This document shows, piece after piece, positions 9,758 through 15,927 of a stretch of 64,000 nucleotides of DNA. The stretch comes from Pseudomonadota bacterium (GTDB lineage Bacteria > Pseudomonadota > Alphaproteobacteria > Geminicoccales > Geminicoccaceae), in assembly GCA_030549795.1 (NCBI GenBank), contig JAUQQO010000016.1, positions 1 to 64,000 of the forward strand, given 5' to 3'. A program made the position numbers and the translations under genes. The number at the start of each line of letters is the position of its first letter. Positions within the stretch are counted from its first letter, which is position 1. The notes below the pieces were generated by a model. That model was not told the DNA's origin and ran no database searches. It saw only the letters and a list, made by a program, of their open reading frames with translations.

Positions 9758-10378
9758 TTAAGCCGGCTGCGGGTCGAGCCAGGGGAATTCGCGCCGGCGA
9801 CGCTCCTCGAAGGCGGCGATGGCATCGAGGTGCTGCAGCGTGAGCCCGATATCGTCGAGCCCGTTCAACAGGCAATGCCGCCTGAAGGGATCGATCGCAA
9901 AGCGCACCACGGCTTTCGATGGCGTGCGGATCTCTTGCGCCTCGAGATCGACCTCGAAGGTCGGATCCTCGGCCTCTTCGGCTTCGCGCATGAGGGCTGC
10001 GACTTGGTCTTTGTCCAAGGTGACCAAGAGCATGCCATTTTTGAAGGCATTGTTGTAGAAAATGTCGGCGAAAGAGGGGGCGATCACGCAGCGGATGCCG
10101 AAGTCCAACAATGCCCAAGGCGCGTGCTCGCGCGAGCTACCGCAGCCGAAGTTCTCGCCGGTGATCAAGATCTTGGCGTTGCGATATTTGGGTTTGTTCA
10201 AGACGAAATCGGGGCGCTCGTTCCCCTCGTCATCGTAGCGCAGGGATTCGAAGAGCGCCACGCCGAGGCCCGTGCGCTTGATGGTCTTGAGGTGCCGAGC
10301 CGGGATGATCTGATCGGTATCGACGTTGATGAGCGGCAAGGGCGCCGCGACACCGCGTAGCTTGGTGAAGGGTTGCAT
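9758..10378 (-). CDS. leuD: 3-isopropylmalate dehydratase small subunit
   Basis: A 206-aa small subunit of isopropylmalate isomerase, which with LeuC (not in this window) converts 2- to 3-isopropylmalate. Diagnostic segments are [19 protein letters not shown] near residue 20 and [20 protein letters not shown] near residue 73. The ATG at 10378 is the family start; the longer frame beyond it has no similarity. Together with leuB it makes a partial leucine operon, with leuC and leuA located elsewhere. Confidence 0.97.
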
Positions 10379-10464
10379 GGTTGCCGTTCCGGATCGAGGG
10401 CTTCTGCTGCTTAGGCAGTTCGCGTCCGTTCGACAACCCCATGAGCGCGGAAAGCGGGCGCGTT

Positions 10465-12141
10465 TTACGCCGCGCCTGCGCCTTCCAGAAGGCGCCGCGC
10501 CACCACTTGCGCCTGGATCTCGGCGGCGCCTTCGAAGATGTTGAGGATGCGGGCATCGCACAAGATCCGCGAGATCGGATATTCGAGCGCGTAGCCGTTG
10601 CCCCCGTGGACTTGTAGCGCTTGGTCGGCGGCCATCCAGGCGACCTGTGCGGCCAGAAGCTTGGCGAGGCCGGCCTCGAGATCGCAGCGCTTGCCCGCGT
10701 CCTTGGCGCGCGCGGCGGACAGTGTCAGCTGGCGGGCGAGCTGGGTTTCCACGGCTGCCCAGGCGAGCTTTTGGTGCACGCGCGGGAAGGCGATGATCGG
10801 CTTGCCGAACTGCGCGCGCGCGCGGGCATAAGAGAGCCCCTCCTCGATCGCCGCCACGGCCACGCCCACGGCGCGTGCCGCGGTTTGAATGCGCGCGCTC
10901 TCGAAAGTGGCCATGAGCTGCTTGAACCCCTGGCCTTCCACGCCGCCCAAGAGGTTCTCAGCGGGCACTTTGAAGCGGTCGAAGGAGAGCGTGTACTCCT
11001 TCATGCCGCGGTAGCCGAGGACCGGGATCTCACCGCCCGAAAGCCCGGCAACGGGGAAGGGATCGGCATCGGTGCCGCGCGGCTTCTCGGCGAGTAGGAT
11101 GGAAAGGCCTTTGTGACCGCGCTCGGGCCGCGTGCGGCAGAGGATGGTCATGAAATCTGCCCGCGCGGCATGGGTGATCCAGGTCTTCTGACCGGTCACG
11201 TACCAATAACCGTCTTCCAGCACTGCGCGGGTTTCGAGATTAGCCAGATCAGAGCCTACGTTGGGCTCGGTGAACACCGCGGTTGGGATGAGCGCACCGC
11301 AAGCAAGCTTGGGCAGATAGCGCGCCTTCTGTTCAGCCGTGCCCGCGCTCGCGATGAGTTCGCCTGCGATCTCGTTGCGGGTGGGCAAAGAGCCGACACC
11401 CAAATAGCCGCGCGAGAGTTCCTCGCTCGCGCAGCACATCGCAACCTTGCTCATCCCGAGCCCGCCGAAGTGCTCGGGAACGGTAAGACCAAAGACGCCG
11501 AGCTCGGCGAGCTCGGCCAGCACCGCATCGGGGATGAGCAGGTCCTTTTGGTGCCAGAGCTGGGCGTAAGGGCGGATCTTCTCGTCTGCGAAGCGCCGCA
11601 GCTGGGCGACCATGAGCTCGAGGCTCTCGTCCTCGAGCCCGGGATCGCCGAGGGCACCCGGCTCTAAGAGCTCGGCGAGGAGCCGCCGCAGCTCGGGGCG
11701 ACCACCCTCGTGGATGAGCGCCCGCACATGCGGCTGCGCGAGCGCGGCGAGGTCGGCCTCATCAAGCCCGAGCTCGTGCGGGCGCACGATCTCGCCCTGC
11801 GCCATCGGCCAGCCGCCCGCAAGTCGGGCCAGATATTCGGAAAAACCCCACGCGAGCTGGATGCGCTCGCGCTTGCCGAGGCGGTTGGCTTCGGCGAGCC
11901 GTCGCGCCCACTCGAAGAGAGCTTCGAGGGCGCGCAGGTGCACCTCGAGCCAGGCGAGACCGTGCGCAGCATGTTGGTTCTGTTCGAGCCGTTCCTGATC
12001 CACTCGGCCGGTCGGCGCCAAGCGGGCGGCGAGCCGCTCGCGCGCCCGGTCGCGAACGTCGCGTGCCGCGGCCAGTGCCGCAGCGCAGCTCTCGAACAGC
12101 TGCGCTGCCGTTGCGTCGCGTTCGCCGGTGATGTCGAGCAT
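10465..12141 (-). CDS. mcd: (2S)-Methylsuccinyl-CoA dehydrogenase
   Basis: A 558-aa flavoprotein of the acyl-CoA dehydrogenase family. It is longer than ordinary family members (about 380 aa), with a roughly 150-residue N-terminal helical extension. That extension is the hallmark of methylsuccinyl-CoA dehydrogenase of the ethylmalonyl-CoA pathway. The core has [19 protein letters not shown], the flavin segment [29 protein letters not shown], and the catalytic-base region [14 protein letters not shown]. The ATG at 12141 is 35 bases below the stop of ccr, so the two are one operon. The assignment is strengthened by ccr and ecm next to it. The product, mesaconyl-C1-CoA, is hydrated by an enzyme not present here. 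Confidence 0.93.
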
Positions 12142-12176
12142 GGCCCGTCTCTCCGCCCGCGCGCCCGCTGTGGCCT

Positions 12177-13790
12177 TTAGTCTTCGAGCGCCTCTTCGAG
12201 GGTGCGCATGCCCGGCCGTTTGGCCTGCACCAGCACCGCCATGTTGCCGGGCTTGTGCTGGTTCTTCCACATCTTCACATGCGCGCGCGGGATGTCGTGC
12301 CAGGCGAAGACCTCGCTCATACAGGGATCGACCTGACGGTTGATGACGAAGCGGTTGGCGGCACTCGCCTGCTTGAGGTTGGCGAAGTGGCTCCCTTGCA
12401 CCCGCTTCTGCCGCATCCACAGATAGCGCGCATCGAGGGTGAGTTTATAGCCGGTGGTGCCGGCGCAGATCACCACCATTCCGCCGCGTTTGACGACGAA
12501 CGTCGAAACCGGGAAGGTCGCGGCACCGGGGTGCTCGAAGACGATATCGACGTCGACTTTGCCGGTGATATCCCAGATCGCCTTACCGAAACGCTTGGCT
12601 TCCGCGAGCCATTTGCCGTACGCTTCTCTGTCCATGGGATCCGGCATCTCGCCCCAGCAGTTGAACTGGGCGCGGTTGATGACGCCCTTGGCCCCCAAGG
12701 ACATCACGAACTCGCGCTTGTCCTCATCCGAAATCACGCCGATGGCATTGGCACCCGAGGCGGCGATGAGTTGCACCGCCATCGAGCCGAGACCGCCGGC
12801 CGCCCCCCACACGAGCACATTGTCGCCGGGCTTGAGGGTGTGCGGCGGATGGCCGAAGAGCATGCGGTAGGCGGTGGCGAGGGTGAGGACGTAGCAGCCC
12901 GACTCCTCCCAGGTGAGGTGTTTGGGCCGCGGCATCAGCTGGCGCGACTGCACGCGACAGAATTGGGCGAAGGAGCCATCCGGGGTCTCGTAGCCCCAGA
13001 TGCGCTGGGAGGGCGAGAGCATGGGATCGCCCCCGTTGCACTCCTCATCGTCCCCGTCGTCCTGGTTACAATGGATGACGACCTCGTCGCCCACTTTCCA
13101 GCGTTTTACCTTCGAGCCCACCGCCCACACGATGCCGGCGGCATCCGACCCGGCGATGTGGAACGGCTGCTTGTGCACATCGAGCGGTGAAATGGGAATG
13201 CCGAGGCACGCCCACACGCCGTTGTAGTTGACCCCGGCTGCCATCACCATGACGAGGCATTCGTCCTCGCCGATCTCATGGGTGGGGACGATCTCCTGCT
13301 GCATGGCGGTCATGGGATCGCCATGCCGCTCCTTGCGGATCACCCACGCCCACATGTTGCGCGGCACATGGCCTAAGGGCGGGATCTCGCCGATGGCGTA
13401 GAGATCCTTGGTGACGATGCGGTTGACCATCGGCGCAGCGGGCTCGCGGTGGATGGGGATGACCTGGGCGCTCGCCGAGGGGCTTGCCCCCGCCGCTTCG
13501 CCCGCCGCGCGCTCCCCCGCCGCTGGCGCGGCAGGGCCCACCGCGCTTGCGCTCGCGCTCACTTGACCGTCGGTGCCGGTGGCGGCGGCGACGTCCTCGA
13601 AGAAATCCGACGGCTCGAGCGGGATGCCCTCGCGCCGCGCGATGGCGAGCAGCTCCTCTTGTCGGCGGGCCGGGATCGCCCCGCGCCGCACCCAGCCCGA
13701 GACCGCCGTCTGCCAGATGCCCAACAGCTCTGCCACCCGCTGCTGCGAGCCGAACTTGGCGATGATCCGCTCGACGTTCTGCCTGCTCAT
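12177..13790 (-). CDS. ccr: Crotonyl-CoA carboxylase/reductase with N-terminal HTH domain
   Basis: A 537-aa protein. Residues from about 125 to the end are a full crotonyl-CoA carboxylase/reductase, which reductively carboxylates crotonyl-CoA to ethylmalonyl-CoA with NADPH. Recognisable parts are DLYAIGEIPPLGHVPRNMWA, AAGVNYNGVWACLG, HCNQDDGDDEECNGGDPM, VLVWGAAGGLGSMAVQLI and GSHFANLKQASAANRF. Known Ccr proteins are about 430 aa. Here about 120 extra residues precede the core: a Cro-like helix-turn-helix (residues 1-65; QQRVAELLGIWQTAVSGWVR is the HTH) and an Ala/Ser/Gly/Pro linker (about 70-118). The start at 13790 has a strong GGGAGGG site, while the internal ATG at 13430 (Met121) has none obvious, so the fusion looks genuine. 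It is co-transcribed with mcd and divergent from ecm. Confidence 0.93.
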   Translation of the reverse strand: MSRQNVERIIAKFGSQQRVAELLGIWQTAVSGWVRRGAIPARRQEELLAIARREGIPLEPSDFFEDVAAATGTDGQVSASASAVGPAAPAAGERAAGEAAGASPSASAQVIPIHREPAAPMVNRIVTKDLYAIGEIPPLGHVPRNMWAWVIRKERHGDPMTAMQQEIVPTHEIGEDECLVMVMAAGVNYNGVWACLGIPISPLDVHKQPFHIAGSDAAGIVWAVGSKVKRWKVGDEVVIHCNQDDGDDEECNGGDPMLSPSQRIWGYETPDGSFAQFCRVQSRQLMPRPKHLTWEESGCYVLTLATAYRMLFGHPPHTLKPGDNVLVWGAAGGLGSMAVQLIAASGANAIGVISDEDKREFVMSLGAKGVINRAQFNCWGEMPDPMDREAYGKWLAEAKRFGKAIWDITGKVDVDIVFEHPGAATFPVSTFVVKRGGMVVICAGTTGYKLTLDARYLWMRQKRVQGSHFANLKQASAANRFVINRQVDPCMSEVFAWHDIPRAHVKMWKNQHKPGNMAVLVQAKRPGMRTLEEALED

Positions 13791-13911
13791 GCGCGCCCTC
13801 CCGCATCGGCGTCAGCAGCGTGTCACGAAAGATGCTGGGCGTCAATAACGTTTTGTGTTTGACGCGCTGCAGCACGCATGTTAGGGAGCGGTTGGGATCA
13901 CTCAAGCTGCG
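13791..13911. promoter_or_regulatory. Divergent ccr/ecm promoter region with GCGTCA elements
   Basis: These 121 bases separate the outward-facing ccr and ecm genes. GCGTCA occurs at 13809-13814 and 13839-13844. GCGTCAA at 13839-13845 is repeated inverted as TTGACGC at 13859-13865, with centres 20 bases apart (about two helical turns). Each arm also reads as a TTGACG -35 box, one facing each gene, but no convincing -10 box is visible on either side. The region may therefore hold promoters, an operator, or both. The HTH on the neighbouring Ccr makes an operator worth testing. Confidence 0.45.
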
Positions 13912-15927
13912 ATGGCGGAGGAGACCATGGCCGAGGGAGGCACCGGGAGGCGGGAACCACGGCGCGATCCGCCCTGGCTGTTCCGCACCTATGCCGGGCA
14001 CAGCTCGGCGCGCGCCTCCAACGCGCTCTTCCGCCAGAACCTCGCCAAGGGTCAAACCGGGCTCTCGATCGCCTTCGATCTGCCGACCCAGACCGGCTAT
14101 GACAGCGATCATCCGCTGGCAAAGGGCGAAGTGGGCAAGGTCGGGGTGCCCATCTGTTCGATCGCGGATATGGAGGTGTTGTTCGAGGGGATTCCGCTCG
14201 CGCGCATGAACACCTCGATGACCATCAACGCCACCGCGATCTGGTTGTTGGCCCTCTACATCGCGGTCGCCGAACGGCAGGGCGCAGCGCGCGCTGAGCT
14301 TGCCGGCACCACGCAAAATGACATCATCAAAGAATATTTGGCGCGCGGCACCTACATCTTCCCGCCCGGGCCGTCGCTGAAGCTCACAACCGACCTCATC
14401 GTCTTCACCGCGCGCGAGATGCCGCGCTGGAACCCGATCAACGTCTGCTCCTATCACCTGCAGGAAGCGGGGGCGACGCCGGTCCAAGAGATCGCCTATG
14501 CACTGGCAACGGCGATCTGCGTGCTCGATGCGGTCAAAGCCTCGGGGCAGATCGCACCGGAAGATCTCCCGAAAGTGGTGGGGCGAATGTCGTTTTTCGT
14601 CAACGCCGGCATTCGCTTTATTACCGAAATGTGCAAGATGCGCGCGTTCACCCGTCTTTGGGATAAGATCACGCGCGAGCGCTACGGGGTAGAAGATCCC
14701 AAACTGCGACTGTTTCGCTACGGTGTGCAGGTCAACTCCTTGGGTCTTACCGAGCAGCAGCCGGAAAACAACGTCTACCGCATCTTGCTCGAAGCCTTGG
14801 GGGTGACCCTTTCCCGGCGCGCCCGCTGCCGGGCGCTGCAGCTGCCGGCGTGGAACGAGGCGCTCGGATTGCCGCGCCCGTGGGACCAACAATGGTCGCT
14901 GCGCCTTCAACAGATTTTGGCATACGAGACCGATCTGCTCGAGTTCGAGGACATTTTCGACGGTTCGCCGGTGATCGAAGCGAAAGTGCGCGAGCTCGAA
15001 GAACAAGCGCTCGCCGAATTGGCCCGCGTGGAAGCGATGGGCGGGGCGATCGCGGCGGTGGAAAGCGGCTATATGAAGGCGCGGCTCGTCGAGAGCAACA
15101 CGAAACGTGTTGCGGCGATCGCGTCGGGCGAGCTCAAGGTGGTGGGGGTGAACTGTTTCACCGAGAGCGAGCCCTCGCCCTTGACCGCCGACGGCGGCGG
15201 CTTTTTGGCCGTCGATCCGCGCGCGGAAGAGGAGCAGATCGCGCGCCTTAAGGCGCATCGCGAGCGCCGTGACGCGCGAGCCGTCGCCAATGCCCTTGCT
15301 GCGCTGCGCCAAGCCGCGCAGGAGGGCCGCAACCTGGTTCCCCCCTCGATCGAATGCGCCAAGGCCGGAGTGACCACCGGCGAATGGGCACAGGTGTTGC
15401 GCGAGGTGTTCGGCGAGTACCGCGCACCGACGGGTGTTGGGGCGGTTGTCGGCGTCGAAGCCGATCTCTTGGCGCCGGTGCGGGCGAAAGTCGAAGAGGC
15501 GAGCCGCCGGCTCGGCCGTCGGCTCAAGATCCTGGTCGGCAAACCGGGCCTCGATGGTCATTCCAACGGCGCCGAACAGATCGCGGTGGCGGCGCGCGAT
15601 TGCGGCATGGAAGTGGTCTACGACGGCATCCGCCTCACCCCGGCGCGCATCGCGACCACTGCCCTCGAAGAGGGCGTGCACGTGGTCGGCCTTTCCATTC
15701 TCTCGGGCTCGCACGAGCCGCTCGTGCGCGAAGTGCTCGAGCGCATGCGGGCTCTTGGCATTGGGGAGGTGCCGGTGGTGGTAGGAGGCATCATTCCCCC
15801 GGCCGATGCCGACCGGCTGCGCGCGCTCGGTGTGGCGCGGGTCTATACGCCCAAGGACTATCGGGTCGACCAGATCATGGCGGATATCGTCGACATCGCG
15901 CTCTCGGCCAGGCGCAAGGCGGCCTAA
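13912..15927 (+). CDS. ecm: Ethylmalonyl-CoA mutase (B12-dependent)
   Basis: A 671-aa adenosylcobalamin-dependent acyl-CoA mutase converting (2R)-ethylmalonyl-CoA to methylsuccinyl-CoA, the step between Ccr and Mcd. The N-terminal barrel has GLSIAFDLPTQTGYDSDHP, RMNTSMTINATAIWLLALY and GTTQNDIIKEYLARGTYIFP. The C-terminal B12 domain has the lower-ligand motif KPGLDGHSNGAEQ (DxHxxG) near residue 545 and the GLSILSGSHEPLV loop. The size suits an Ecm, in which substrate and B12 domains sit on one chain. The divergent position opposite ccr-mcd supports Ecm over methylmalonyl-CoA mutase. The start is ATG 13912 or ATG 13927. Confidence 0.93.
   Translation: MAEETMAEGGTGRREPRRDPPWLFRTYAGHSSARASNALFRQNLAKGQTGLSIAFDLPTQTGYDSDHPLAKGEVGKVGVPICSIADMEVLFEGIPLARMNTSMTINATAIWLLALYIAVAERQGAARAELAGTTQNDIIKEYLARGTYIFPPGPSLKLTTDLIVFTAREMPRWNPINVCSYHLQEAGATPVQEIAYALATAICVLDAVKASGQIAPEDLPKVVGRMSFFVNAGIRFITEMCKMRAFTRLWDKITRERYGVEDPKLRLFRYGVQVNSLGLTEQQPENNVYRILLEALGVTLSRRARCRALQLPAWNEALGLPRPWDQQWSLRLQQILAYETDLLEFEDIFDGSPVIEAKVRELEEQALAELARVEAMGGAIAAVESGYMKARLVESNTKRVAAIASGELKVVGVNCFTESEPSPLTADGGGFLAVDPRAEEEQIARLKAHRERRDARAVANALAALRQAAQEGRNLVPPSIECAKAGVTTGEWAQVLREVFGEYRAPTGVGAVVGVEADLLAPVRAKVEEASRRLGRRLKILVGKPGLDGHSNGAEQIAVAARDCGMEVVYDGIRLTPARIATTALEEGVHVVGLSILSGSHEPLVREVLERMRALGIGEVPVVVGGIIPPADADRLRALGVARVYTPKDYRVDQIMADIVDIALSARRKAA

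Follow-up and report, generated by a model that had tools for sequence, protein, structure and literature searches.

The crotonyl-CoA carboxylase/reductase (Ccr) encoded in the 64,000-nucleotide stretch of Geminicoccaceae DNA analysed here (the window) carries a Cro-type helix-turn-helix (HTH) domain on a long N-terminal tether, and we posit that this protein, HTH-Ccr, is a PutA-like trigger enzyme that acts on the divergent promoters of its own gene and of the neighboring acyl-CoA mutase gene, ecm (probability about 0.7). We infer that it binds the spacer between the two genes, that it represses rather than activates them, and that it thereby feeds back on the amount of enzyme. The textbook trigger enzymes PutA, BirA, and NadR have been treated as a handful of oddities. 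HTH-Ccr is like them in that a metabolic enzyme domain and a DNA-binding-type domain form one chain; it differs from all three in its long flexible tether and in belonging to an HTH type that recurs on many enzymes. The likeness to PutA extends to the arrangement of the target: PutA is a single-target regulator that binds only the putA-putP divergent spacer (PMC8249747), a role that for HTH-Ccr is predicted. The two proteins nonetheless combine different enzymes with different DNA-binding folds, a ribbon-helix-helix in PutA but a Cro-type HTH in HTH-Ccr.

The first-pass annotation had read the gene as one continuous frame that joins an HTH domain, a linker, and a complete Ccr, and this architecture withstood comparison with domain models and solved structures (Table 1). 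Residues 141-531 match TIGR01751, the Ccr equivalog model, with 620 bits (cut-off, 378.55) over profile positions 3-397 of 398, and the solved Ccr 4gi2 aligns end to end with residues 126-536. Judged from sequence, residues 126-537 are a complete, full-length Ccr core, for which reductive carboxylation is predicted. HTH-Ccr shares this core with known Ccr proteins (TIGR01751; 4gi2, 6na3), along with an acyl-CoA mutase and an acyl-CoA dehydrogenase as neighbors, whereas the solved Ccr chains lack the HTH and the linker, their match beginning at HTH-Ccr residue 125 or later.

Table 1. Features of the HTH-Ccr locus, in window coordinates.
Feature	Coordinates	Strand	Basis or remark
HTH-Ccr fusion gene, 537 aa	12177..13790	-	single uninterrupted frame, ATG start; kept in relatives
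Cro-type HTH domain, residues 1-66	13593..13790	-	NF046037 and P22_Cro matches; AlphaFold2; nearest folds
Putative recognition helix, residues 27-36 (QTAVSGWVRR)	13683..13712	-	helix from AlphaFold2; invariant residues in carriers
Ala/Ser/Gly/Pro linker, residues 67-125 (~60 aa)	13416..13592	-	dN/dS, low identity, low pLDDT
Crotonyl-CoA carboxylase/reductase domain, residues 126-537	12180..13415	-	TIGR01751; 4gi2 alignment
Divergent acyl-CoA mutase, by context ethylmalonyl-CoA mutase (ecm)	13912..15927	+	TIGR00641, TIGR00640
ORF with acyl-CoA dehydrogenase, downstream of ccr	10465..12420	-	PF02771/PF02770/PF00441 from residue 265
ccr-ecm divergent spacer, presumed operator region	13791..13911	.	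AACAC enrichment in carriers
AACAC/GTGTT word, the sole exact one in this spacer	13855..13859	+	weaker than in most relatives
Imperfect inverted repeat TGCTGGGCGTCAA / TTGACGCGCTGCA	13833..13871	.	13-nt arms, 85%, 13 nt apart

The HTH belongs to a named family with a recognizable fold. Residues 6-58 match NF046037 ("carph-isopro," a model that only names the domain) with 61-65 bits (61.2 for the full protein, 63.0 for residues 1-120), exceeding the curated cut-off of 38 bits, and this is the sole NF046037 match in the window's genome. The same residues match PF14549 (P22_Cro) marginally, with 30.5 bits for the full protein and 32.6 for the N terminus alone against a gathering cut-off of 30.2. 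Structure prediction gave a confident Cro-like model of the domain (AlphaFold2 monomer, 15 family sequences as input; pLDDT 95.6), with helices at residues 3-13, 16-23, 27-36, and 41-54 and a short fifth one. Among solved structures, a profile search placed Xfaso1 Cro (3bd1, E 1.4e-6) nearest, together with a Cro hybrid and P22 Cro, and the nearest folds found by Foldseek are again Xfaso1 Cro (3bd1, TM 0.69) and N15 Cro with operator DNA (6on0), with E-values that are weak for so short a model. The domain, previously labeled Cro/CI-type, can accordingly be narrowed: it is of the Cro type represented by P22, N15, and Xfaso1 Cro and close to YdaS, and the CI part of the label did not hold. These Cro proteins (PF14549; 3bd1, 6on0, 1rzs) resemble it in sequence and in DNA-binding core fold but are free-standing, whereas the C terminus of the HTH in HTH-Ccr runs on into linker and enzyme. 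Dimeric binding to palindromic operators, the mode of the P22_Cro family, is predicted for the HTH of HTH-Ccr. The AlphaFold2 model of the full-length protein is poor outside the HTH (mean pLDDT 51), with the linker at pLDDT 25-30.

Far from being unique, as had been implied, the fusion is common to a whole family. All 20 full-length ccr copies examined in Geminicoccaceae and relatives bear the HTH, and within the window's family every ccr that is not broken by a contig end is fused in full; a few genomes of this family are without ccr, including two nearly complete ones of genus g16 (G022 and G040). A scan of GTDB with the HTH alone returned 22 loci, mostly from named Geminicoccaceae or unclassified Alphaproteobacteria MAGs, among them Arboricoccus pini and the complete MAG KatS3mg117, together with one MAG labeled Rhodospirillales and one labeled Rhodocyclaceae; each of the 19 loci with a full-length ORF that was read encodes the Ccr fusion. 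Across the class, 121 of 385 genomes contain a Ccr-like match, and outside the family none of the matches in these genomes extends into the HTH, all of them starting at query residue 70 or later; some 115 other genomes of the class have Ccr and no HTH. Three loci of one genus (L092, L093, and L095) have WGFDT..GGLAQF in Ccr where the other aligned proteins have WGYET..GSFAQF (HTH-Ccr residues 267-268), a Glu-to-Asp change that adjoins a CO2-binding site of Ccr.

Among the 20 carriers, the median pairwise dN/dS is 0.18 for the HTH, 0.17 for Ccr, and 0.95 for the linker (residues 67-120), which has a mean identity of 23% and keeps its frame and little else. By this estimate, purifying selection on the HTH equals that on the Ccr domain. 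None of the 20 departs from the shared sequence at residues 24-29 (G24-A29) and 31-33 (S31-W33), which span the turn and the point where the recognition helix begins. Position 121, by contrast, is Met in only 4 of the 20 carriers, and an internal start at Met121 is therefore not a conserved feature. Taken together, the in-frame fusion across relatives, the dN/dS values, and the unconserved Met121 exclude a lost stop and a sequencing error, as well as any internal start that is conserved. The worry that a frameshift or lost stop had joined a small HTH gene to ccr, or that translation begins at Met121, is thus dispelled at the sequence level: we found no point in its favor, the 20 in-frame copies come from different assemblies, and an artefact is hardly credible.

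The surroundings of ccr look like an ethylmalonyl-CoA pathway cluster. By context, the divergent mutase upstream is ethylmalonyl-CoA mutase and the acyl-CoA dehydrogenase downstream is methylsuccinyl-CoA dehydrogenase; no equivalog model passes for the ORF that holds the latter, whose true start lies inside that ORF. An apparent N-terminal extension of LeuD (9758-10561) was rejected as an artefact of an upstream GTG and is without an HTH.

At the presumed operator region, the word AACAC sets the carriers apart. The carrier set comprised 20 ccr-ecm spacers, with 170 bp upstream of ccr used for L105, L108, and L109, in which no adjacent ecm start was recognized. AACAC occurs at 18.7/kb in these spacers versus 1.05/kb in their flanks and 1.18/kb in 35 upstream regions of non-fused ccr, an approximately 18-fold enrichment, and is present in 20/20 carrier spacers versus 7/35 non-fused promoters. 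The longer YAACAC is present in 19/20 carriers versus 4/35 non-fused promoters, at 14.6/kb versus 0.68/kb in flanking DNA and 0.67/kb in the non-fused regions, and its 43 sites in carrier spacers exceed the mean of 3.4 and the maximum of 9 in 500 shuffles. Because the pattern was found and then counted in the same sequences, these figures draw their weight from the contrast with flanking DNA and with promoters of non-fused ccr. The carriers also amount to essentially a single family, in which the fusion and the spacer words have a common history, so that shared ancestry is a confounder. In two loci (L097 and L098) the spacer contains a 17-bp dyad, GTGTTG-N5-CAACAC. In each of the searched genomes with GTGTTGACNNYCAACA (G017, G006, and G020), the site has no mismatch-free copy other than the one at ccr; since it has 13-14 fixed bases, such uniqueness is also expected by chance and shows only that the site is uncommon. 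The spacing of half-sites varies between genera. AACAC is thus enriched at the carriers' own gene, a dyad is found in some genera only, and the window's genus has a degenerate version: the window's own spacer holds no exact YAACAC, one AACAC, and degenerate forms. Over the whole window, YAACAC occurs 29 times, compared with 18 expected from shuffles; none of the 29 lies in the ccr-ecm spacer.

The inverted repeat in the window's spacer includes two divergent TTGACG boxes; CGTCAA...TTGACG is kept in most relatives and may represent no more than a pair of -35 boxes. A promoter scan yielded no passing sigma-70 candidate, and a reading of CTAACA / TTTGACG as the -10/-35 pair of ecm was dropped because of this and because 14 nt separate the two elements in the window. 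Non-fused ccr promoters from many families (L174-L213) have shared words of their own, such as TGCATTGCAAAA, with GCAAAA in 21/35; these words look like the site of a different, common regulator.

HTH-Ccr has parallels on other enzymes. The class was searched with the 66-aa HTH domain and NF046037, ORFs were read, and representatives were checked with family models. Related HTH domains are found at the N termini of CarA, ArgB, PyrB, SerA, HisZ, PdhA (E1 alpha), CoaBC, and GlmU, as well as NnrDE (NAD(P)HX epimerase/dehydratase), a TorD-like chaperone, and mitofilin-like proteins, making at least ten metabolic proteins besides Ccr. Partners vary between lineages, and recognition helices differ from partner to partner. 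The HTHs of HisZ, CoaBC, the TorD-like protein, and others score more weakly against NF046037, and because not all exceed its cut-off, common descent of all HTH parts is not claimed. For CarA, the palindrome TGGGAA-N5-TTCCCA was derived from four carA upstream regions and then sought genome-wide (four genomes, about 10 Mb): it occurs exactly at five places in the four CarA-HTH genomes; three of the genomes account for four of these, all at carA, while the fourth genome has a one-mismatch site at carA and its single exact copy elsewhere. For HisZ, a search of six AT-rich HisZ-HTH genomes from two families gave eight copies of TTCATANNATATGAA, seven of them upstream of hisZ-HTH and one elsewhere, whereas the reversed control pattern gave 0; one genome is without it. 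Because each is all but confined to its fused gene across genera or families, these two palindromes give a general rule its strongest support. Dyad scores of single upstream regions were mostly not significant versus shuffles, and the palindromes at NnrDE, PyrB, CoaBC, ArgB, TorD-like, and GlmU genes are therefore leads only; no palindrome was seen at SerA. HTH-bearing enzymes probably regulate their own genes, and the balance tips, if only slightly, toward a broader proposal, namely, that Alphaproteobacteria have repeatedly recruited Cro/YdaS-type HTHs to the N termini of Ccr, CarA, ArgB, PyrB, SerA, HisZ, PdhA, CoaBC, GlmU, and NnrDE. Each fusion would have a recognition helix and a private palindrome of its own, and together they would form a general class of self-limiting, one-component enzymes, represented in Geminicoccaceae by HTH-Ccr.

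We envisage the following mechanism. Ccr is known as a tetramer, and each subunit of HTH-Ccr would carry a Cro-type HTH on a flexible tether of ~60 residues; oligomerization of the enzyme would bring the HTHs together and so provide pairing, which a Cro core on its own does not have. The HTH pairs could then grip AACAC-based half-sites that overlap the TTGACG boxes in the ccr-ecm spacer, and once there is enough enzyme, the promoters of ccr (with the downstream acyl-CoA dehydrogenase) and ecm would be held down. With so long a tether, the HTHs could plausibly pair up on half-sites set at different distances, in keeping with the variable arrangement of these half-sites. Negative feedback on the enzyme level is the simplest function; HTH-Ccr might instead activate ccr and ecm. 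Alternatively, HTH-Ccr could bind the same spacer in a ligand-gated manner, with crotonyl-CoA, NADPH, or a CoA ester in the active site altering its oligomeric state or HTH pairing, in which case flux would be sensed and not amount. We consider such gating possible but rather unlikely. PutA switches with its substrate (PMC8249747), and CoA esters of the ethylmalonyl-CoA pathway act on RamB of Paracoccus (PMC10370305), but the linker of HTH-Ccr is long, unconserved, and almost neutral, with no conserved coupling element visible, which argues against tight allosteric coupling; simple feedback by enzyme amount fits such a linker at least as well as ligand sensing does. The first-pass annotation had proposed an enzyme that senses crotonyl-CoA or NADPH and regulates its own divergent region: the regulatory half of this proposal gains from selection on the HTH, the carrier-specific AACAC words, and the analogy with CarA and HisZ, whereas the sensing half found no support.

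Two further readings appear improbable. The AACAC sites could belong to a separate Geminicoccaceae regulator of ethylmalonyl-CoA genes, with the HTH doing something else or nothing. Other alphaproteobacteria have separate regulators, such as the TetR-type CcrR of Methylobacterium (cited in PMC10370305), and the shared words of non-fused ccr promoters are in keeping with this; yet three genomes have no further copy of the strict dyad, and constraint on the HTH is strong. The HTH could also be a tag of many proteins that serves DNA or nucleoid tethering, localization, or stability instead of gene-specific regulation, as its presence on very different proteins, a mitofilin-like membrane protein included, might suggest. 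A general tag sits poorly, however, with recognition helices that differ by partner, with CarA and HisZ palindromes that differ from each other and are nearly restricted to their own promoters, and with spacer words that are carrier-specific.

An NCBI model for the domain and enzymes with fused DNA-binding domains are already known; a search of the open-access literature returned no paper on the NF046037 domain, HTH-Ccr, or the recurrent pattern. Should HTH-Ccr and its parallels prove to bind their private palindromes, a single small module of phage type would be at work in at least ten metabolic proteins, each paired with a matching operator. This would amount to a natural toolkit for feedback at the level of the enzyme and would let the co-evolution of recognition helix and operator be studied directly, and the key enzyme of the ethylmalonyl-CoA pathway would be its own regulator in this Geminicoccaceae lineage.

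The commonest partner of the HTH is the mitofilin-like membrane protein (L041-L061, e.g., L053, L058, L059, and L060), in which the HTH lies N-terminal of a likely membrane helix; at L053, L059, and L060, the upstream frame resembles, by eye, uroporphyrinogen-III synthase. TorD-like chaperones with an N-terminal YdaS-type HTH are encoded at L145, L154-L156, and L163, and the region upstream of L154 contains GGTCATAG-N7-CTATGACC.
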